Below are positions 12,387-22,445 of a DNA stretch of 30,077 bases, piece after piece (within the stretch, counting starts at the first letter, position 1; each line of letters opens with the position of its first letter). The notes below the pieces were generated by a model, which saw only the letters and a list, made by a program, of their open reading frames with translations, did not search any database and was not told the origin of the DNA. Both the position numbers and the translations under genes were made by a program. This DNA is from a virus: IMG/VR virus record IMGVR_UViG_3300034418_009393, positions 1 to 30,077 of that record; one strand, written 5' to 3'.

Positions 12387-12917
12387 ATGGCTTTCGTCGT
12401 ACAGCAAGATACCCCCGTAGCTTCGGCGAACTCTTACGTGGCCGTGGCCGACTTCAAGGCCTATCACGCGGATAGGGGAAACACATTCACGGCGGAAGAC
12501 ACCGCCATCGAGCAAGCCCTCGTAAAGGCTACCGACTACCTAGACACACGCTTCCGCTTCGTCGGCTGTCGGGACACCAAGGACCAGACAACGGAGTGGC
12601 CGCGGGACCACGCCTACGACGATCGAGGCGACAACGTCGAGGGAGTGCCGCAGGCCGTCAAGGACGCGACGTGTGAGTACGCCCTCCGGGCCATCTCAGC
12701 CGACCTGCTGTCAGACCCCACGCGCGATGCAACCGGTCGAGCGATCAAGTCGAAGTCCGAGAGCGTCGGGCCGATCAAGGAGAGCGTGGAGTACGCCTAC
12801 GACGGTCAGGTGTTCCAGCTCCCCGAGTATCCCAGTGCGGACAGGCTGTTGTTTGCCCGCAAGCTAGTCCTTCGTAGGTCTGCCGGCATCGGCGGGGGCA
12901 TCGTGGGGAGAGGCTGA
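12387..12917 (+). CDS. Head-tail connector/adaptor protein (DnaT-like fold)
   Basis: The 176-aa product has the common adaptor pattern TPVASANSYVAVADFKAYHA, then a helical AIEQALVKATDYLDTRF segment and the short motif TEWPR (about 69-73) that ends the region shared with phage DnaT-like/gp6-type connector proteins. A helical stretch (VPQAVKDATCEYALRAISAD) and a flexible loop follow. Such adaptors form the ring that attaches to the portal after packaging. AGGAG lies 8 nt before the ATG. The following gene starts on its last base, forming an ATGA-type junction with the stopper. Confidence 0.87.
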   Translation: MAFVVQQDTPVASANSYVAVADFKAYHADRGNTFTAEDTAIEQALVKATDYLDTRFRFVGCRDTKDQTTEWPRDHAYDDRGDNVEGVPQAVKDATCEYALRAISADLLSDPTRDATGRAIKSKSESVGPIKESVEYAYDGQVFQLPEYPSADRLLFARKLVLRRSAGIGGGIVGRG

Positions 12918-13330
12918 TGACGACACAGTACGCAAGCTCTCGCGCCCTAGCCCAGAGGCTGATCAAGAACCGGGGGCGTAACGCAACCATACAACGCAAG
13001 TCCGACGGGACGCCCCCGGACCCTTCCAAGCCCTGGAAGCCGGGGTCAACTCGTTACAGGAACGTCGTGCAACTCAAGCCGATGGTCTTCCTGGAGTATC
13101 GCGTATCAGAGAACAACACTCTCAACTCCTTCGCCCTCGCGGCAACGGTCGGTAAGGCCCTGGTGCCGGAAGCCAAGCAGCTCGCGTACGTCGCAGCCGC
13201 AGACCTGACCGAGCGACCGAAGGTCGGGGACGTGGTTGTAGACGGACTGTCCAATCACGAGGTGCTCGAGGTAGAGATACTTGCACCAGGCGAAGAGGAC
13301 GTCCTCTACGTCCTGTACTTGAAAGAATAA
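12917..13330 (+). CDS. Head-tail stopper/connector protein
   Basis: The 137-aa product (MTTQYASSRALAQRLIKNRG, RNATIQRKSDGTPPDPSKPW) matches the pattern of head-closure or stopper proteins: an N-terminal helix, an RxATIxR strand with a P-rich linker, and a beta barrel (YVAAADLTERPKVGDVVVDG, HEVLEVEILAPGEEDVLYVL). The family closes the channel after packaging and joins the tail. It follows the adaptor with a 1-bp overlap and is separated by an endonuclease gene from the tail terminator, its usual neighbour. Confidence 0.83.
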   Translation: MTTQYASSRALAQRLIKNRGRNATIQRKSDGTPPDPSKPWKPGSTRYRNVVQLKPMVFLEYRVSENNTLNSFALAATVGKALVPEAKQLAYVAAADLTERPKVGDVVVDGLSNHEVLEVEILAPGEEDVLYVLYLKE

Positions 13331-13333
13331 GGG

Positions 13334-13693
13334 ATGACGACCGAAAGACATAACAGGTACGAAGACCAGGTGAGATGGCGGAAGAACAACCCTATCAAGC
13401 ACATGGTCATTCGTGCTCGTTGTCGAGCGAGAGACAAGGGTATCGAGTTCTCAATCACACACGAAGACGTCGAGAAGCTCACGCATTGTCCTGTGTTTGG
13501 AACCGAACTAAACTACGAGCCTCAACCGTCTGCGTTTAGCCACAACGCCGCATCGCTCGACAGGATAGACAACAGCAAGGGATACGTTCCAGGCAACGTG
13601 ACGATCATGAGCCTACGGGCAAACACGCTTAAGCGTGACGCGTCAGTAGAGGAGATAGAGAAGCTTCTCGAATGGATGAGGAGACAGGGCTAA
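13334..13693 (+). CDS. HNH-type (beta-beta-alpha-metal) endonuclease, probable homing enzyme
   Basis: The 119-aa protein has a basic helical N-terminus (RYEDQVRWRKNNPIKHMVIR, ARCRARDKGIEF). Its core contains HCPVFGTELNY (about 50-60), then ASLDRIDNSKGYVPGNVTIM and SLRANTLKRDAS (about 74-105). The SLDRIDNSKGYVPGNV block with a terminal Asn/Arg helix is a hallmark of small phage HNH-family nucleases that cut DNA with a metal ion. It sits alone between stopper and tail-terminator genes, starts 4 bp after the stopper's stop and its stop overlaps the next start (TAATG). It therefore behaves as a free-standing selfish insert. A structural or regulatory role is less likely. Confidence 0.8.
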   Translation: MTTERHNRYEDQVRWRKNNPIKHMVIRARCRARDKGIEFSITHEDVEKLTHCPVFGTELNYEPQPSAFSHNAASLDRIDNSKGYVPGNVTIMSLRANTLKRDASVEEIEKLLEWMRRQG

Positions 13694-14148
13694 TGGCAAG
13701 CTTAGACTTCGAGACGGCTACCGACATCGTGCTCGGTAAGTTCAAGGAAGAGTGGGACCGTCGGGCGGAAGAGGCCACGGCCGGATACGTACCCGAGGTC
13801 GAGTGGCCCAACGTGCGAATAGAGACACCCAAGAGCGAGACTTCCAAGGATCGCGCATGGGCACGCATAACCACCCGCCATACTTCAGGCTCACAGAGAT
13901 CGCTAGGGGAGGAAGACTGCAGACGCTTCGAGCGGCGCGGCCTGGTCAGCGTGCAGGTATTCGCCCCCGTTGGCCAACGCGGGCTCACCCTTGCTCACCG
14001 TTTGGGTACAGTGGCTCAAGATGCGTTTGAGGGCGAGCAGTCCGAAGGCGTATGGTTTAGGGACGCCGTCCTCCGAGAGGTAGGTCCCGACGCTCACTGG
14101 TACCAAGTGAACGTGACGGCTGAGTTCGTGTATGACGTCGTCAAGTGA
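13693..14148 (+). CDS. Tail terminator protein (DUF4128-like)
   Basis: Start chosen at ATG 13693 (MASLDFETATDIVLGKFKEE), overlapping the endonuclease stop; an ATG at 13672 lies inside that gene. The 151-aa product shows the terminator pattern: an N-terminal helix, a strand (WARITTRHTSGSQRSLGEED), then RFERRGLVSVQVFAPVGQRG with helix LTLAHRLGTVAQDAFEGEQS, and C-terminal strands (WYQVNVTAEFVYDVV). Such proteins form the ring that ends tail-tube polymerisation and binds the head. The next gene is the tail tube, as expected. Confidence 0.87.
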   Translation: MASLDFETATDIVLGKFKEEWDRRAEEATAGYVPEVEWPNVRIETPKSETSKDRAWARITTRHTSGSQRSLGEEDCRRFERRGLVSVQVFAPVGQRGLTLAHRLGTVAQDAFEGEQSEGVWFRDAVLREVGPDAHWYQVNVTAEFVYDVVK

Positions 14149-14170: not shown

Positions 14171-15655
14171 ATGAGCACCGGAACAACAATCGACAGCAAC
14201 AAGGTCGGTCTGCGCTATGCTGAGGAAGTCCTCGGCTCTATCGGCGTCCTGCCGACCGGACCAGACCCCGACTGGAACCCTTTGGAACCGAACACCTACG
14301 GGGAGTTCGGTCCGCAGATAAGCCAGGTCGCACGCAATCCAATCAACAAGTCTCGCCAACGTAAGAAGGGCGTCGTCGTCGACCTGGACGCTTCAGCCGG
14401 CTTCCAGTCCGACTTCCTTCAGAAGAGCATGTACGACCTGATGCAAGGCTTCATGTTCGCTGACTGGCGAGAGAAGGTCAACACCGAGCCGACTGCAGTC
14501 TCAGGGACAGGCTACACGGTCGGCGCGGCAGCGTCTGACTATGATGCCAACGACCTCGTGTTCGCCGAAGGCTTCACCAACTCGGGCAACAACGGCTTGA
14601 AGCTCGTGACCGGTACGACCGGCACTTCTGTGCAAGTCTCCGGCCTGACTGCAGAGGCCTCACCTCCGTCTGGTGCCAAGATCACGAAGGTAGGAGCTCA
14701 GGCTACGGCTGGCGACGTCGCGGTAGACGTCAGCGGCTCGGACCCGAAGCTCACTGCCACCACACTCGACTTCACTGACTTGGGGCTCATCCCGGGCGAA
14801 TGGCTGTTCATCGGCGGCGACGCCCTGGCGAACAAGTTCGACACAGCAGCAGACAACGGGTTCGCCCGGGTCAAGAGCGTCTCGGCAGGAGAGCTGGTGC
14901 TCGATCGTCAGCCGTCGACAATGGTCGCGGACGCCGGCACCGGCAAGACAATCCGTCTGTTCGTCGGTCACGTCATCAAGAACGAGTTTGACGAGAGCCT
15001 CATCAAGTGTCGCTCCTATCAGTTTGAGCGCACACTCGGCTCAGCGGGCTTCGAGTACGTCAAGGGCGCGGTCGCCAACACCATGGAGATCGCGATCAAC
15101 ACGGCTGACAAAATCACCGTCGACCTAGGCTTTGTCGGCATCGACGCGGAGACGCGTACGGTCGGCGACGGAGAGAAGCCAGGCGCACGCCCTGACCTCC
15201 CCGAGGAAGAGGCCTTCAACTCGAGCTCAGACTTCTCACGTCTGCGTCTGTTGAACGAGGACACTGCTCAGACTTTGGCCACGTATCTCACCGAGATGCG
15301 TATCACAATCGACAACGGCGTACGGCCGAACAAGGCCATCAGCCAGCTGGGAGCCATCGGCGTTAGTGCCGGGGACTTCATGGCCGCCGGCTCAGTGACT
15401 GCCTACTTCGACGACGTGGCGGCGATGAGTGCCGTGCGCAACAACGACGACGTCTCTCTGGACTTCGCGCTCGTCAAGTCGAACGCCGGTTGGCTGTTTG
15501 ACCTTCCCCTCGTATCTATGGGGGACGGTCGGTTGAATGTCGAGAAGGACCAGTCGATCAAAATCCCGCTCACCATGGAGGGAGCGGAACACCCGACGCT
15601 GCATCACACCCTGCTTGCAGGCAGCTTCACTTACCTCCCGAACGCCGCAATGTGA
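14171..15655 (+). CDS. Major tail tube protein
   Basis: The 494-aa product follows the terminator behind a strong AAGGAGG site. The segment MSTGTTIDSNKVGLRYAEEV, LGSIGVLPTGPDPDWNPLEP is the common start of phage tail tube subunits of the larger type, whose N-terminal beta barrel polymerises into the tube. The central ~120-260 region is Gly/Thr/Ala rich (TGTTGTSVQVSGLTAEASPP) and probably Ig-like beta domains. The C-terminal part (IKCRSYQFERTLGSAGFEYV, ITVDLGFVGIDAET, SAGDFMAAGSVTAYFDDVAA) returns to the core fold. Codon use is highly biased to GC-ending codons, as for the capsid gene, indicating high expression. Confidence 0.9.
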   Translation: MSTGTTIDSNKVGLRYAEEVLGSIGVLPTGPDPDWNPLEPNTYGEFGPQISQVARNPINKSRQRKKGVVVDLDASAGFQSDFLQKSMYDLMQGFMFADWREKVNTEPTAVSGTGYTVGAAASDYDANDLVFAEGFTNSGNNGLKLVTGTTGTSVQVSGLTAEASPPSGAKITKVGAQATAGDVAVDVSGSDPKLTATTLDFTDLGLIPGEWLFIGGDALANKFDTAADNGFARVKSVSAGELVLDRQPSTMVADAGTGKTIRLFVGHVIKNEFDESLIKCRSYQFERTLGSAGFEYVKGAVANTMEIAINTADKITVDLGFVGIDAETRTVGDGEKPGARPDLPEEEAFNSSSDFSRLRLLNEDTAQTLATYLTEMRITIDNGVRPNKAISQLGAIGVSAGDFMAAGSVTAYFDDVAAMSAVRNNDDVSLDFALVKSNAGWLFDLPLVSMGDGRLNVEKDQSIKIPLTMEGAEHPTLHHTLLAGSFTYLPNAAM

Positions 15656-15694: not shown

Positions 15695-16156
15695 ATGACT
15701 GACAAGACCAAAGATACCGCAGCCGACGTGCTGAACAATCCGTTCGCCCTCTTCGAGACTGACCAGTCTGTCGAGGCGGACGGCATCGAGCTCGACTACG
15801 GAGCGTTCTACATCACTGTCGCTCGCGCCGGCGGTTCGAACGAAGGGTTCAAGAAGGCGCTCGCCGACAAGACCCGCCCCTATCGTCGCCTCATCCAAGA
15901 GGAGCGCATGCCTGAGGAACGCTCGAAGCAGTTGCTTCGTGAGACCGTGGCTGAGACCGTGGTCAGGGGCTGGGGCAGCACGAAGCATGGCGACGGCAAG
16001 ATGGTCGGGAAGAACGGTGAGGCTATCCCCTTCTCTGTTGAGAACGTGATTGACCTCTTCGAGAAGCTGCCAGACCTCTTTCAGGACGTCTACGAACAGG
16101 CTCAGAAAGTGTCGCTCTTCCGCGCCAACGAGGCTGAAGCCGACGCGGGAAACTGA
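15695..16156 (+). CDS. Tail assembly chaperone G
   Basis: The 153-aa protein (MTDKTKDTAADVLNNPFALF, VEADGIELDYGAFYITVARA, FKKALADKTRPYRRLIQEER) matches the pattern of tail assembly chaperones encoded directly after the tube gene, which coat the tape measure during tail assembly. Its last codons are GCG GGA AAC TGA, so it ends on a perfect -1 slippery heptamer (16147-16153). About 70 residues of its C-terminal part form a helical bundle. An AAGGA site precedes the ATG. Confidence 0.88.
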   Translation: MTDKTKDTAADVLNNPFALFETDQSVEADGIELDYGAFYITVARAGGSNEGFKKALADKTRPYRRLIQEERMPEERSKQLLRETVAETVVRGWGSTKHGDGKMVGKNGEAIPFSVENVIDLFEKLPDLFQDVYEQAQKVSLFRANEAEADAGN

Positions 16157-16503
16157 CGGCGGTCCTCAGCTACTCGCTGACGCAGGGACCGACTGAACGC
16201 AAGATCATAGAGGCCGCCATCAAGAGACGGCGGCCTCTGCCAGAGACGATAGCTAACGCTCCGTCGCTGTACACGGGCCTCGAGATGTACTACGAGGCGT
16301 TCACAGAGTTGAGCACGTGCCGAGGGCTCTCAGACATGGGGGCCTCAGGTCCGATCCCCTGGACGGCGATCGACGCATACGCAAGGAGAAAAGGCTTCGC
16401 CGGCGACGGCTTCGAGTACCTTGTCAAGATGGTGAGAGCCATGGACGACGTTTTCCTACGCCACCTACAAGACAAACGTGAACAAGAACGTGAGGAAAAC
16501 TAG
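15695..16503 (+). CDS. Tail assembly chaperone GT (product of -1 frameshift)
   Basis: After the AAC codon at 16151-16153, a -1 shift continues into an open frame from CTG 16153 to the stop at 16501-16503, adding 116 residues (LTAVLSYSLTQGPTERKIIE, then RRPLPETIANAPSLYTGLEM, STCRGLSDMGASGPIPWTAI, DAYARRKGFAGDGF). The total fusion length is 269 aa. The -1 frame has no stop from the slippery site to 16503 and no ribosome binding site before its first ATG (16285), so it is best read as the T extension. In lambda, G and GT recruit tail tube subunits onto the tape measure at a fixed ratio. Confidence 0.85.
16147..16153 (+). promoter_or_regulatory. -1 ribosomal frameshift slippery site GGGAAAC
   Basis: GGGAAAC is a canonical X-XXY-YYZ heptamer read in frame as xxG GGA AAC, directly followed by the G stop codon TGA. 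Lambda uses GGGAAAG at the same location in its tail chaperone. Re-pairing in the -1 frame gives GGG AAA C with full codon-anticodon matches at the first two positions. Confidence 0.88.
16161..16190 (+). promoter_or_regulatory. Stem-loop stimulating frameshift
   Basis: GGTCC (16161-16165) pairs with GGACC (16186-16190), and an inner CAGC (16167-16170) pairs with GCTG (16176-16179) around the loop TACTC, with a small internal asymmetry. It begins 7 nt after the slippery heptamer, within the usual 5-9-nt spacing of stimulatory structures. It does not look like a terminator. Confidence 0.6.
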
Positions 16504-16505
16504 CC

Positions 16506-16949
16506 ATGGCAGGATTTGCGGACTTCGGTAAGAGGATGGGGGACCTCGCAGTAGAGGTCACCGATGGCTCAGACCGCATAGTCCGCAAGACCGTACTAGC
16601 GGTAGACCAAGCCGTCGTCATGTCTACCCCGGTAGACAGAGGACGGGCCCGGTCCAACTGGGTCGCTCAGCTCGACGAACCGTACAACGGAACGATAGAC
16701 CCATACGCTCCAGGTGAGGGGCTCGGTGTCGGAGAACAGGCGAACGCGCAAGCCGCTCTCGCCCAAGCAGCCTCGGTCTCGGCCGCCTACGACGGCGACC
16801 GCAATAGCGAGGTACACATCACAAACAACCTGCCTTACATTGAACGCCTGAACGACGGGTATTCCGCCCAGGCTCCCGCTGAGTTCGTCGAAGAAGGCGT
16901 ACGAGAGGGGGTGAAGGCTATCAAGGAGGCCCGCCTATTGGAGGACTGA
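16506..16949 (+). CDS. Tail completion / minor tail protein (HK97 gp10-like)
   Basis: The 147-aa product starts after a GAGGA site at the end of GT. It carries STPVDRGRARSNWVAQLDEP (about 40-59), the signature of HK97 gp10-like minor tail or neck proteins, and the matching INNNLPYIERLNDGY-type segment (here HITNNLPYIERLNDGYSAQA) followed by PAEFVEEGVREGV, a helix. In this location, between the chaperone and the tape measure, it probably belongs to tail assembly, though related proteins act in the neck. It is 3 bp from the tape measure gene. Confidence 0.82.
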   Translation: MAGFADFGKRMGDLAVEVTDGSDRIVRKTVLAVDQAVVMSTPVDRGRARSNWVAQLDEPYNGTIDPYAPGEGLGVGEQANAQAALAQAASVSAAYDGDRNSEVHITNNLPYIERLNDGYSAQAPAEFVEEGVREGVKAIKEARLLED

Positions 16950-16952
16950 TAG

Positions 16953-19748
16953 GTGCCGACCGAACGTATTGACATAGTCGTATCCGAGCGAGGCTCTCGC
17001 CGGGTACGTCGTAACATTGAGGACGTAGGGTCTAGCGCCACCAAGTCAGGTAAGGCGGTAGGCTTCTTCACGTCTGAGCTCAAGCGTCTCGCCATCGGAG
17101 CCTCGGCGTCCGCAGCCCTCATAGGCGTCACACGCGCAGCCATCCAGTTCCAAGACGCCATGGCCGAGGTCTCGACTTTGGTCGACACGGCCGTGTTCGA
17201 CATGGACAGGCTCAAGCGAGCTGCTCTCGACCAGGCCGCAGCGTTCGGGCAACAGCCCGTCGCACAGGTGCAGGCCATATATCAGATAATCTCCGCCGGA
17301 GCCTCTTCGGCAGCCGACGCGACTGAACGCCTGGAGGCAGCCAACAAGCTGGCCGTGGGAGGCGTGACGGACGTGGCGACGGCTGCAGACGGCTTGACTT
17401 CCGTGCTCAATGCCTACGGGCCTCGCGTCGAAGGCGCGACTGCGGTCACGGACGCGTTGTTCGTAGCCATGAAGGCCGGCAAGACGACGATTGCGGAACT
17501 GTCGAGTGCCATAGGTAAGGTCGCTCCACTAGCCGCTCAGACCGGCGTGTCCTTCGATGAACTGCTCGCTTCAATCTCAGCCCTCACTAAGGGAGGCATC
17601 AAGACGACGGAAGCCGTCACGGGCGTGCGAGCCGTACTCGCCGCCGTGGCCAAACCGACCAAGGAGGCTTCCGACCTCGCGAACGCCCTAGGCATCGAGT
17701 TCAACGCGGCTGCACTCCAGTCCCTCGGCCTGGCGGGCTTCCTCGAGCAGCTCGTACAGAAGACGGGCGGCAGCACGGAGGCACTCGCTCAGCTGTTCGG
17801 TGGCGTGGAGGCCCTCATACCTGTCATGGCTCTGTCTGGTCAAGCGGGCGTCGACTTCGCTAATATCCTAGAGGATATGGCTGAGAAGGGCGGAGCTACT
17901 GAGGAGGCGTTCAACAAGATCGCCAACTCTCCGGGCTTCCAGCTCAACCGTGTCATGGCGGCGATAAAGGTAGAGGCCATCGAGCTAGGCTCCGCGATAG
18001 CCGACGCTCTCGTGCCTGCCATGAGGTTCCTCGCAGACAACCTGTCGAACATCATAGACCTGCTGAAGGTCGCGACAGCGGCTACGGCTGCCTACTACGC
18101 GACCGTACGAGGCGGAGCTCTAATCACGGCCGTGACCCAGTTGGTCGCCCTAGAGAAGGCACTCGGGGCCACGACTACGGCGCAGGCCCTAGCTTCTGCT
18201 GCCAGCAAGACGTTCACCCGAGCAACCGCGGGCGCCACCGGCGCCGTGCGAGCTCTGACCGTCGCACTCATCGCCAACCCGGTCGGAGCCCTCGTCGCTC
18301 TCATAGCCGGCGCGGTTACAGCCCTCGTCTTGTTCGGCGACCAGATAAGCGTGACGGGCGACGGTGTAGTGTCACTGCTCGACATCTTCCGAGCGCTCTT
18401 CAGCTTCGTGACCGACGCGCTAGGCCCCGTCGTCGAGTTCTTCAAAGACGCGTGGGATGGCACTGTGGACAGCGTGGGCGGATACCTCGGTAAACTGCTC
18501 CAGTTCTTCGTTGACGTGCTAGGCAAGGTCCTCGAGTTCGCGAAGGACGTCGTCAACAAGTACATCGGGCTTTGGGTCGGAGCCGTACAGGCCGTCATCG
18601 CCGCTTGGGGCATCTTCCCGGACGCATTGAAGGACATATTCATTCAGGCCCTCAACGGGGCCATCGGCCTGGTCGAGAGCGGCATCAACAAGATGATCGG
18701 CCTGCTCAACGAGCTGCCCGGCGTAGACATAGGCGCCGTACAGTTCGAGGAGTTCGAGAACAACGCTGCTGGAGCCGCGGCTCAGCTAGGACAAGCAGTG
18801 TCCGGAGCGTTCGGCGACGCGTTGAACCGAGACTACATCGGGGACGTGGCAAATGCCGTACTGGACCGCGCTCGTGAGATAGCAGAACGTCGCAGGGGTG
18901 AAGCAGTCGCAGACGCCGTCGCGCCGACAATCCCGACCGTGAACCCCGGGGGCATCAACATTCCGACGGCGGCTTCAGGCTCTAGCGGCGCAGCCGCTCA
19001 AGACGCTGAGAAGCTGAACGACGCGTTGAAGCTGCAGAAGGAACTGCTCGAAGGCATCCGTGGTCCCGCGACTGACTACGGTCAGAAGCTCGACGCCCTG
19101 TCCGCACTGCTCGACAAAGGCAAGATCAGCCTGGACGAGTACGAGAACGCGGTTCGAGACGTACGCATCGAGTTCCTCGAGAGCCAGACGGACTTCACTT
19201 CCGGCTTCGAGCGCGGACTGCTCAAGATACAGCGCGACATAGACGACGTGGCCTCCCAGATCGAGGACGCTCTTACGAACGCCTTCCGCGGCGCAGAGGA
19301 CGCACTCGTCGAGTTCGTGACGACCGGCAAGCTCGACTTCAAGTCCCTCGCAGAGAGCATCATCGCTGACCTGGCTCGCATAGCCATACGTCAGGCAATC
19401 ATCAAGCCCCTGACGAACGCCCTAGGGTCGTTCGCTAGCAGCTTCGGCGGGGGTTTTGGAGGAGGAGGCTTCGGTGGCGGCGGAGGAGGCCTAGGCTTTG
19501 CCACGGGCGGCGGCTTCACAGTCGGCGGCGGAGGCGGGGTTGACAGTCAGCTTGTACAGTTCCGAGCGTCACCGGGTGAGCGCGTGAACATCACACGTCC
19601 AGGCGAGAACCCCTCTGACGGCGGCGGAGGTCCTCGTCAAGTGGTATTCAATATCTCGACGCCGGACGTCCAAGGCTTCCGACAGTCAGAGGCTCAGATC
19701 GCTGCTCGCATGCAACGGATCGCTTCACGCGGAGACAGGGTGAGATAA
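16953..19748 (+). CDS. Tail tape measure protein
   Basis: The 931-aa product uses a GTG start behind GGAGG. After a basic N-terminus (SERGSRRVRR) it has the TP901-type core: AAIQFQDAMAEVSTLVDTAV (62-81), QAAAFGQQPVAQVQAIYQII (94-113), VGGVTDVATAADGLTSVLNA (135-154) and ELLASISALTKGGIKTTEAV (203-222). A strongly hydrophobic stretch (VRALTVALIANPVGALVALI at 432-451 plus AGAVTALVLF) may insert into the host membrane during DNA ejection. The C-terminal ~100 residues are Gly rich (FGGGFGGGGFGGGGGGLG) with an FRASPGERVNITRPG end. At about 1.5 angstrom per residue it would set a tail of roughly 140 nm. It is the longest gene except the hub. Confidence 0.94.
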   Translation: MPTERIDIVVSERGSRRVRRNIEDVGSSATKSGKAVGFFTSELKRLAIGASASAALIGVTRAAIQFQDAMAEVSTLVDTAVFDMDRLKRAALDQAAAFGQQPVAQVQAIYQIISAGASSAADATERLEAANKLAVGGVTDVATAADGLTSVLNAYGPRVEGATAVTDALFVAMKAGKTTIAELSSAIGKVAPLAAQTGVSFDELLASISALTKGGIKTTEAVTGVRAVLAAVAKPTKEASDLANALGIEFNAAALQSLGLAGFLEQLVQKTGGSTEALAQLFGGVEALIPVMALSGQAGVDFANILEDMAEKGGATEEAFNKIANSPGFQLNRVMAAIKVEAIELGSAIADALVPAMRFLADNLSNIIDLLKVATAATAAYYATVRGGALITAVTQLVALEKALGATTTAQALASAASKTFTRATAGATGAVRALTVALIANPVGALVALIAGAVTALVLFGDQISVTGDGVVSLLDIFRALFSFVTDALGPVVEFFKDAWDGTVDSVGGYLGKLLQFFVDVLGKVLEFAKDVVNKYIGLWVGAVQAVIAAWGIFPDALKDIFIQALNGAIGLVESGINKMIGLLNELPGVDIGAVQFEEFENNAAGAAAQLGQAVSGAFGDALNRDYIGDVANAVLDRAREIAERRRGEAVADAVAPTIPTVNPGGINIPTAASGSSGAAAQDAEKLNDALKLQKELLEGIRGPATDYGQKLDALSALLDKGKISLDEYENAVRDVRIEFLESQTDFTSGFERGLLKIQRDIDDVASQIEDALTNAFRGAEDALVEFVTTGKLDFKSLAESIIADLARIAIRQAIIKPLTNALGSFASSFGGGFGGGGFGGGGGGLGFATGGGFTVGGGGGVDSQLVQFRASPGERVNITRPGENPSDGGGGPRQVVFNISTPDVQGFRQSEAQIAARMQRIASRGDRVR

Positions 19749-19749
19749 G

Positions 19750-20517
19750 ATGACAGACTTTCACGAGGTCCGGTTCCCGGACGACATAAGCAAGGGCTCG
19801 AGTGGCGGGCCGACACGTAGGACCGACATCGTCGAGCTCGTGTCAGGGCACGAGAAGAGGAATGCGGCTCAAGCAAACTCGAAGCGTATGTACGATGCAG
19901 GCATCGGACTTAGAAATGTACAACATTTACATGCAATAATAGAATTTTGGGAGGCACGCTTCGGACAGCTATATGGCTTTAGATGGAAAGACTGGCTTGA
20001 TTATAAAAGCAGCCGGGGAAAAGCTCAGCCTTCAGCCATAGATCAGGTACTAGGTACCGGAGACGGCACTAACACAGTCTACAAAGTCTACAAGACTTAC
20101 GGTGGCCCCGAAACAGCTTTTTACACTCGTAGGATTACAAAACTAGTGGAAGACAGCGTATTAGTTGCGCTAAACGGGACAGAGACCGACGAGTATTTGT
20201 ACTCAGTAAATAAGGGCTTAATAATTTTCTTCAGTCCTCCGAGCGCAGGCGCTAAAATTACTGCGGGCTACGAGTTTGACGTTCCAGTTAGGTTTAATGC
20301 AGACAGTCTTATGATTAGTATTGATGCTTTTGAGGCGGGCTCAGTGCCAGCAGTAGAGATACGAGAACTAAAGCTTCAAGAGGCACCGGTTCCTATCGAG
20401 GCACAATATGCCGTAGATATTGCAGCAGTTTATGGCCTTAACGCCCTAATTGATTTGGCTAACAAACTCGACAACACAGTTAACGTGGTCTATCCTGGAG
20501 TGCTATCATGCCCGTAA
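19750..20517 (+). CDS. Distal tail protein, GTA gp12-like (DUF2460)
   Basis: The 255-aa product has the DUF2460 pattern: MTDFHEVRFPDDISKGSSGG, then RTDIVELVSGHEKRNAAQAN, FWEARFGQLYGFRWKDWLDY and the DQVLGTGDGTNTVYKVYKTY strands, then ITAGYEFDVPVRFNADSLMI near residues 176-195. In the Rhodobacter GTA the protein forms the distal ring between tail tube and hub. The last ~50 residues (AVEIRELKLQEAPVPIEAQY, AVDIAAVYGLNALIDLANKL) extend beyond the usual end and lie in an AT-richer tract. The composition changes within the gene around 19,910, which marks a mosaic joint. It overlaps the next gene by 10 bp. Confidence 0.9.
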   Translation: MTDFHEVRFPDDISKGSSGGPTRRTDIVELVSGHEKRNAAQANSKRMYDAGIGLRNVQHLHAIIEFWEARFGQLYGFRWKDWLDYKSSRGKAQPSAIDQVLGTGDGTNTVYKVYKTYGGPETAFYTRRITKLVEDSVLVALNGTETDEYLYSVNKGLIIFFSPPSAGAKITAGYEFDVPVRFNADSLMISIDAFEAGSVPAVEIRELKLQEAPVPIEAQYAVDIAAVYGLNALIDLANKLDNTVNVVYPGVLSCP

Positions 20518-22440
20518 CATTAGAACAATTGACTACTCGGCTAGAAAACATTGACGTTGACGCCAACACACTGGGCAAGATTGTCAACGACGCCGCAGAC
20601 ACACCAAACGCCGGGCAGCCCAGCGGTACGGTTACAACACGCAGCGGGAATGTAGTCAAAAATGCAGCGCGAGTATTGCAAGACCTTCGGCAGAATGCAA
20701 CTTACAAAGTGCCAGTAGATTTCGGGGCAGGTTTACTCGTCGATGATCCGGCTTTCACCGTACGCTATAATGGTAATATATATGCTCCTTCAAATGACTC
20801 TCCAAATTTTACGACAACTGCAACTTTTGTGCCCACTGAATGGGAGTTAGTTGCAAACCGTTCAGGAATGCCCTGGTTTGCGGAAATTTGTGCGGATGGG
20901 GTCTGGCGGGTCATTCTTGTAAAAATGGGGCAGTCGAATGCCGTCGGTAAGGGGGAAACGGGAGGTATAACTGCGTACAACTCCCTAGTCAAAGTGTATG
21001 ATCAGCCTAACAATCAGATAGTCGAAGCAACTTATGGCTTTTTTAACACGCCAGACGCTGCGGACATGGGCCTGACTACTGCGCATCGTATTGCTGAAAA
21101 ATACGGCGTCGAAGTTATTGTGGTCGACAACGCGCAAGGGGGCTTATCGATTGACAACTGGCACGAACCTCTGCAGGGAAACTCGGCTCCGACGCTAAAC
21201 ATGTGGACGCCGCTAACAACTGACGTACCGGCCGCACTTAGTCTCGCAGGGGCCACTAAGGCTCACATTCTATTTGCGCAAGGGGAGTCTGACTCGAATA
21301 TGCCCCTTGACGAATATTACATAAAACTAGATGCCATCATCGACGATCTGATTGACAACCAGCCCTGGTTTGTCCGGGGTTTTTCGTTGTTCATGGACGT
21401 TGAAATGGGCACAGCAAACCTGGCGGGCAAGTCAGACAAGCAGATATGGTCGAAGCAGTTGCTTTCAGGCAAAAGACCTGATATTCATAAAATTTTGCGG
21501 ACTAGACTTATGCCAATGAAGGACGCTCTGCATTTTTCTGGAGAGTCTACAGACGCTATTGGTGCAATGGCTGAACAAACCCTTACCGCTCCAGCCTTGA
21601 ATACGTCAGTTGACGCATATATAGCTGATAATTCCATAATTGACTTACACCCAACAGGCACGACCGGAGTGCTTTTTAACAACCTACAAGATATTTGGTA
21701 CGCGGTTTCGGCTTCTCGCATTGAACCGTCTAAAATAGTCATAATAAATCTTAAGCCCGGAGACCATATCTATAAAAGTTTGGTAGTTGACGCAGCTAAT
21801 TCTAATCAGATTATTTTCAGAGGAGCTCCCGTATCTGGCACTGAGCCTACTGCTTCTAATCTTACTGGAACGTATTCTACCGATCTTAGTGCTTGGGAAA
21901 GCTACTGGCCTTCGCGTTTGCGTCCTACAGGACAAGCTTTAGCTCTCGTGTCTCCGGTCCATGCTTTTGAAAACCTTTTAATAGCGGCAGACGTGAATGC
22001 CGACGGAGTTGTGTTAGGCTCTGAAACGGGGGACAGATATTCGGGTTCAAGCCAGTTTAAGAAAGTAGGTATCATAGGTTTCAATGAGGCTGGGGTTGAA
22101 GGTCGTTATGGTGGAAAACTTTTTGCCCCGGGGGCCTTAGGCAGCCCCGAGTTGTATATATCTCATTGTCAAGATGCATTAAAACTCAACGGCGCTCAGG
22201 TCTGGACGCAAGGAGCTTTAATTTCGCGAAATTTGCGATACGGAGTATATTGTGGCGGATTTTCCGACGCTTATGTTGACAATGCAGACATTGTAAACAA
22301 TGCCTCTAATGATCTTTTTGTTGCCGGAGAGGCTCGGGCGACAATTCAGGCAAAGAACATGCTAACTGCTACTACGTCTAACCGGACTTATAATTCTACA
22401 GGAGGCTGGGGGCAAACAGTTTACGGCAATGATGGGGCTA
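19910..22440. other. AT-richer island with receptor-recognition module
   Basis: From about 19,910 to about 22,440 the sequence switches to AT-ending codons and many TA/AT runs, while the regions before and after are GC-rich with GC-ending codons. The left border lies inside the DUF2460 coding sequence and the right border falls at or just inside the start of the DUF2163 gene. The island holds the esterase-spike gene and the DUF2460 C-terminal part. This is judged by eye, without computed values. It fits acquisition of a host-range module by homologous exchange. Confidence 0.7.
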
Positions 22441-22445
22441 GGTAG
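20508..22445 (+). CDS. Tail fibre/spike with SGNH (SASA-type) esterase domain
   Basis: The 645-aa protein has an N-terminal part (about 1-125) that may attach it to the tail. An SGNH/sialate O-acetylesterase-like domain follows, with GQSN (nucleophile Ser143), AQGGLS (209-214), QGESD (258-262) and DALH (Asp339, His342), giving a complete catalytic dyad and conserved blocks. From about 380 a repetitive beta-rich region (NRSIIDLHP..., VVLGSETGDRYSGSSQFKKV) suggests a right-handed beta-helix, common in tail spikes. It probably removes acetyl groups from surface polysaccharide or deacetylates a receptor. The whole gene is visibly AT-richer than its neighbours. It interrupts the usual DUF2460-DUF2163 order and replaces the C-terminal part of the DUF2460 gene. 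Confidence 0.85.
   Translation: MPVTLEQLTTRLENIDVDANTLGKIVNDAADTPNAGQPSGTVTTRSGNVVKNAARVLQDLRQNATYKVPVDFGAGLLVDDPAFTVRYNGNIYAPSNDSPNFTTTATFVPTEWELVANRSGMPWFAEICADGVWRVILVKMGQSNAVGKGETGGITAYNSLVKVYDQPNNQIVEATYGFFNTPDAADMGLTTAHRIAEKYGVEVIVVDNAQGGLSIDNWHEPLQGNSAPTLNMWTPLTTDVPAALSLAGATKAHILFAQGESDSNMPLDEYYIKLDAIIDDLIDNQPWFVRGFSLFMDVEMGTANLAGKSDKQIWSKQLLSGKRPDIHKILRTRLMPMKDALHFSGESTDAIGAMAEQTLTAPALNTSVDAYIADNSIIDLHPTGTTGVLFNNLQDIWYAVSASRIEPSKIVIINLKPGDHIYKSLVVDAANSNQIIFRGAPVSGTEPTASNLTGTYSTDLSAWESYWPSRLRPTGQALALVSPVHAFENLLIAADVNADGVVLGSETGDRYSGSSQFKKVGIIGFNEAGVEGRYGGKLFAPGALGSPELYISHCQDALKLNGAQVWTQGALISRNLRYGVYCGGFSDAYVDNADIVNNASNDLFVAGEARATIQAKNMLTATTSNRTYNSTGGWGQTVYGNDGAR

Follow-up and report, generated by a model that had tools for sequence, protein, structure and literature searches.

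A conserved slippery heptamer in a YuA/RcSimone-Hastad-like siphophage points to programmed -1 ribosomal frameshifting within its tail assembly chaperone gene

Two overlapping reading frames in the tail module of a viral genome raise the question of whether they are expressed as separate proteins or whether the second extends the first through a programmed change of frame. The window, that is, the whole 30,077-nt stretch of DNA analyzed here, an IMG/VR virus record, carries on its plus strand, in this order, the genes for the tail tube, G, T, Neck1 and the tape measure, which places the two overlapping frames between the tail tube and tape measure genes, as in a G/GT pair. The upstream neighbor (14171-15655) encodes the tail tube protein (Pfam Phage_tube_2, E = 4e-28), and a tail completion/Neck1 gene of the HK97 gp10-like type (16506-16949; PHROG 169, E = 1e-35) lies between T and the gene for the tail tape measure protein, the expected partner of G (16953-19748; PHROG 991, E = 1e-72; Pfam PhageMin_Tail and Tape_meas_lam_C). 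Profile searches assign G itself (15695-16156, 153 aa) to PHROG 313, 'Tail assembly chaperone' (E = 1e-26), and to PHROG 8233, though a Pfam search with the same protein returned no match. The T region (16153-16503, 116 aa plus stop) matches Pfam PF23812, Phage_TAC_18 (E = 5e-20), and the tail chaperonin family PHROG 3817 (E = 4e-31), in agreement with the T-type continuation proposed in a preliminary description of the locus. Furthermore, the two halves cover PHROG 8233 head to tail, G taking up positions 7-139 of the profile and T positions 140-256, and as they are consecutive on this profile, the family evidently contains fused products.

Two other genes of the region are of separate note. 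An ORF at 13334-13693 is HNH/endonuclease VII-like (PHROG 3322, E = 1e-32) and is flanked by the genes for head closure (12917-13330) and the tail terminator (13672-14148); RcRudolph, RcSimone-Hastad, CN1 and YuA have no annotated gene at this position, and the ORF probably encodes a homing endonuclease of the free-standing type within the structural module. Further downstream, the gene at 20508-22445 is flanked by those for DUF2460 and the baseplate hub. Its 645-aa product contains a sialic acid-specific acetylesterase (SASA) domain (E = 6e-10), gave no match in a PHROG search and is possibly a tail-borne carbohydrate esterase.

The anatomy of the G/T junction can be read directly from the letters. 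The end of G contains the heptamer GGGAAAC (16147-16153, plus strand), phased G_GGA_AAC within the gene, i.e. in X_XXY_YYZ register, and immediately followed by the G stop codon TGA (16154-16156). The -1 frame entered at 16153 stays open for 116 codons up to the T stop at 16501-16503, the 19-nt overlap between G and T contains the in-phase heptamer, and the predicted G-T product would comprise 153 + 116 = 269 aa. The phase, the abutting stop and the length of the open frame had all been described correctly; the further statement that the site joins chaperones G and GT is right in that the junction is real, but the elements joined are G and T, and GT is the fused product, G-T. As a mere string GGGAAAC is not rare (5 occurrences in the window vs 3.9 expected); an in-phase X_XXA_AAZ heptamer is found at just 5 of the 7694 codon positions in called genes, and its chance presence within the 19-nt overlap is unlikely, at a few per thousand. 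A chance origin is excluded because the heptamer recurs in all relatives.

To place the site in a comparative context, as the preliminary description had called for, we assembled 9 IMG/VR loci and 26 annotated phage records, nearly all picked by T-domain homology only, which after removal of copies left 31 distinct loci for close analysis, the window included. The best named relatives over the window stretch are the Rhodobacter phages RcRudolph and RcSimone-Hastad, followed by the YuA/CN1 group. T lies in the -1 frame of G at every one of the 31 loci, and each of them carries an X_XXA_AAZ heptamer that is in phase and whose position relative to T is unchanged. The heptamer reads GGGAAAC in 19 loci and AAAAAAC in 9, AAAAAAG, GGGAAAA and GGGAAAG occur once each, and heptamers ending in AAC are preferred over AAG in this phage group (28/31); no relative that keeps both frames was found to lack a heptamer among the homologous loci compared. 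The distance to the G stop is at most 42 nt throughout the set: the heptamer abuts the stop in 19 loci, precedes it by one codon in L009, L012, L021, L034 and L035, and lies 30-42 nt before it in L003, L004, L010, L023, L033 and L036, and at a further locus outside the 31, L013, an AAAAAAG stands 111 nt upstream of the G stop. The G stop of YuA, CN1 and AN14 is located 39 nt further on, and the heptamer still directly precedes the conserved T start, LxxVLxY. The variable heptamer-to-stop distance means that the length of the G tail drifts while the slip site is fixed relative to T. The site is thus anchored at the beginning of T and not at the G stop, which is the behavior to be expected from a true recoding site.

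If T were instead an independent gene with a start of its own, translated by re-initiation or from an internal ribosome binding site and without any frameshifting, its first available ATG would be that at 16285, T codon 45. Such an ATG is indeed present, and PaMx25, AN14 and phage 73 are annotated with two genes. The region between the heptamer and 16285, however, contains no ATG, GTG or TTG, and the bases preceding the ATG, tgtacacgggcctcgag, read directly, hold no good Shine-Dalgarno sequence, which upholds the earlier observation that this start lacks a ribosome binding site. Initiation at 16285 would moreover discard 44 conserved residues: the codons of T ahead of the ATG align across the group (LTxVLxY...PLPxxIANAP) and evolve under purifying selection (dN/dS 0.22-0.39 against three relatives), and the Phage_TAC_18 match already starts with residue 23 in the translated T segment, ahead of the ATG. 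Independent initiation would also leave the conserved heptamer unexplained, and we consider it very improbable.

Still less credible is that the split between G and T reflects a sequencing error or the decay of a single gene. A one-base indel would resemble a frame change, but the same site is present in three other IMG/VR contigs at 99.95-100% identity and the same arrangement recurs in much more distant relatives. A comparably negligible probability attaches to transcriptional rather than ribosomal slippage as the source of the fused product; mixed-frame products do arise by this route in some bacteria, but the homopolymer runs in GGGAAAC are no longer than 3, too short for slippage by RNA polymerase, and the in-phase codon constraint in the relatives fits tandem tRNA slippage. 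Stop-codon readthrough was also considered and rejected: past TGA, the 0 frame closes within 8 codons.

Taken together, the family matches, the gene order, the conserved heptamer, the lack of a usable T start and three existing join annotations lead us to propose, with high confidence, that this YuA/RcSimone-Hastad-like siphophage uses a programmed -1 ribosomal frameshift to express its tail assembly chaperone gene. Among these lines of evidence, we regard the comparative conservation of heptamer and frame as the strongest. In the corresponding model, most ribosomes would terminate at TGA 16154 to release the 153-aa G, whereas a minority, paused at GGA-AAC, would slip one base back to GGG-AAA and resume with CUG at 16153 for another 116 codons, producing the 269-aa G-T. 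By homology with lambda, G would serve to coat the tape measure protein, while in G-T the T part would recruit tail tube subunits, and given these lambda-like roles we infer that the slip rate would set the ratio of G to G-T.

The term 'textbook', previously applied to the site, fits in that a -1 shift is supported, but not in two other respects that count against the frameshift reading: the codon decoded is AAC rather than the AAG favored in E. coli, where G_GGA_AAC is the weaker slip site of the two, and the downstream hairpin is not conserved in close relatives. G_GGA_AAG is described as highly shift-prone in E. coli in a review of the subject (PMC5009743).

The predicted RNA stem-loop 3' of the heptamer (16157-16195, plus strand), a possible stimulator, is the least secure of the claims. 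In genes of this kind such a stimulatory structure is common without being obligatory. The core of the stem-loop, GGUCC/GGACC (16161-16165 paired with 16186-16190), begins 7 nt past the heptamer, the spacing noted previously, whereas the complete stem of minimum energy begins at 16157; the stem-loop belongs to a 107-nt predicted fold with a z score of -3.9, and of 300 codon-preserving shuffles only 2 fold as well as the natural sequence over the first 55 nt after the site. In RcRudolph and RcSimone-Hastad, however, two of the core pairs are broken, and covariation analysis of the four closest distinct sequences lends the hairpin no support (68% of cells paired; 368 of 500 shuffles reach the score). 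Hairpins at a similar spacing of 7-8 nt are predicted in PaMx25, HD01, PW916 and Axy06. Across relatives, which are not independent sequences, the excess of structure over codon shuffles found at 0-55 nt (Stouffer -7.1) is equaled by that at 60-115 nt (-7.8), and the notion of RNA structure specific to the slip site was rejected. A role of the stem-loop as a frameshift aid is plausible, if unproven. A second predicted hairpin, 11 bp long and GC-rich, lies inside T at 16208-16239 (plus strand), and it is conceivable, though doubtful, that the hairpin after the site and this GC-rich one about 55 nt on form a two-part element tuning an AAC-type slip site; the ratio of G to G-T would then be set by structure and not by an efficient AAG slip. 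An SD-like element lying some 10 nt before the heptamer is stronger than most other positions of G in many relatives, but as a candidate dnaX-type upstream Shine-Dalgarno stimulator it does not clearly exceed codon-preserving shuffles (Stouffer -1.4; window z +0.3) and is not supported.

The prediction that automatic annotation would divide the gene or lose T is borne out by the public records, where most relatives have two genes or no T, as in HD01, PW916 and Vibrio 1.194. T is encoded yet unannotated in these three and in R6L (L017, L018, L035 and L036). Recognition of the frameshift corrects the annotation of a gene that is split or dropped by automatic tools in many relatives, and the 31-locus data set ties the slip site to the start of the T domain instead of the G stop. 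The site itself raises no new mechanistic question; the frameshift is an ordinary one of the lambda G/GT type, with nothing categorically new.

The slip heptamer of lambda is GGGAAAG, unlike the GGGAAAC of the window, which further differs in the Neck1 gene intervening before the tape measure gene. The likeness lies in the location upstream of the tape measure gene and in the shared X_XXY_YYZ logic. In lambda, G and GT are two chaperones made from one start through a -1 slip (Levin 1993 and Xu 2004, as cited in PMC5009743), and both the system and the fact that tailed phages conserve it are well established (PMC5009743). G_GGA_AAC is listed in the same review as the g-t shift site of a haloarchaeal virus, and GGGAAAC has been reported for Caulobacter phage Colossus (PMC3556154). 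A paper on Rhodobacter capsulatus phages takes a programmed frameshift in tail assembly chaperone genes to be usual and comments on its absence in RcZahn (PMC8601537). The chaperones of RcRudolph and RcSimone-Hastad share about 65% T identity and an identical GGGAAAC at the G stop with the window, but that stop is TAG and the 7-nt-spaced hairpin is not kept. Their records, like that of Burkholderia phage KL1, already carry a joined CDS annotation at the homologous site. For KL1, a stem-loop behind the site was predicted with mfold (PMC3483164); in our analysis this stretch is weakly structured (-6.8 kcal/mol, z -0.5). Although its T is only about 40% identical to that of the window, KL1 gp18/gp19 are homologous proteins with the same GGGAAAC right before TGA, a site predicted in 2012 to yield a -1 product of 264 aa, and in KL1, as in the window, a Neck-type intervening tail gene separates the frameshift gene from the tape measure gene (PMC3483164).
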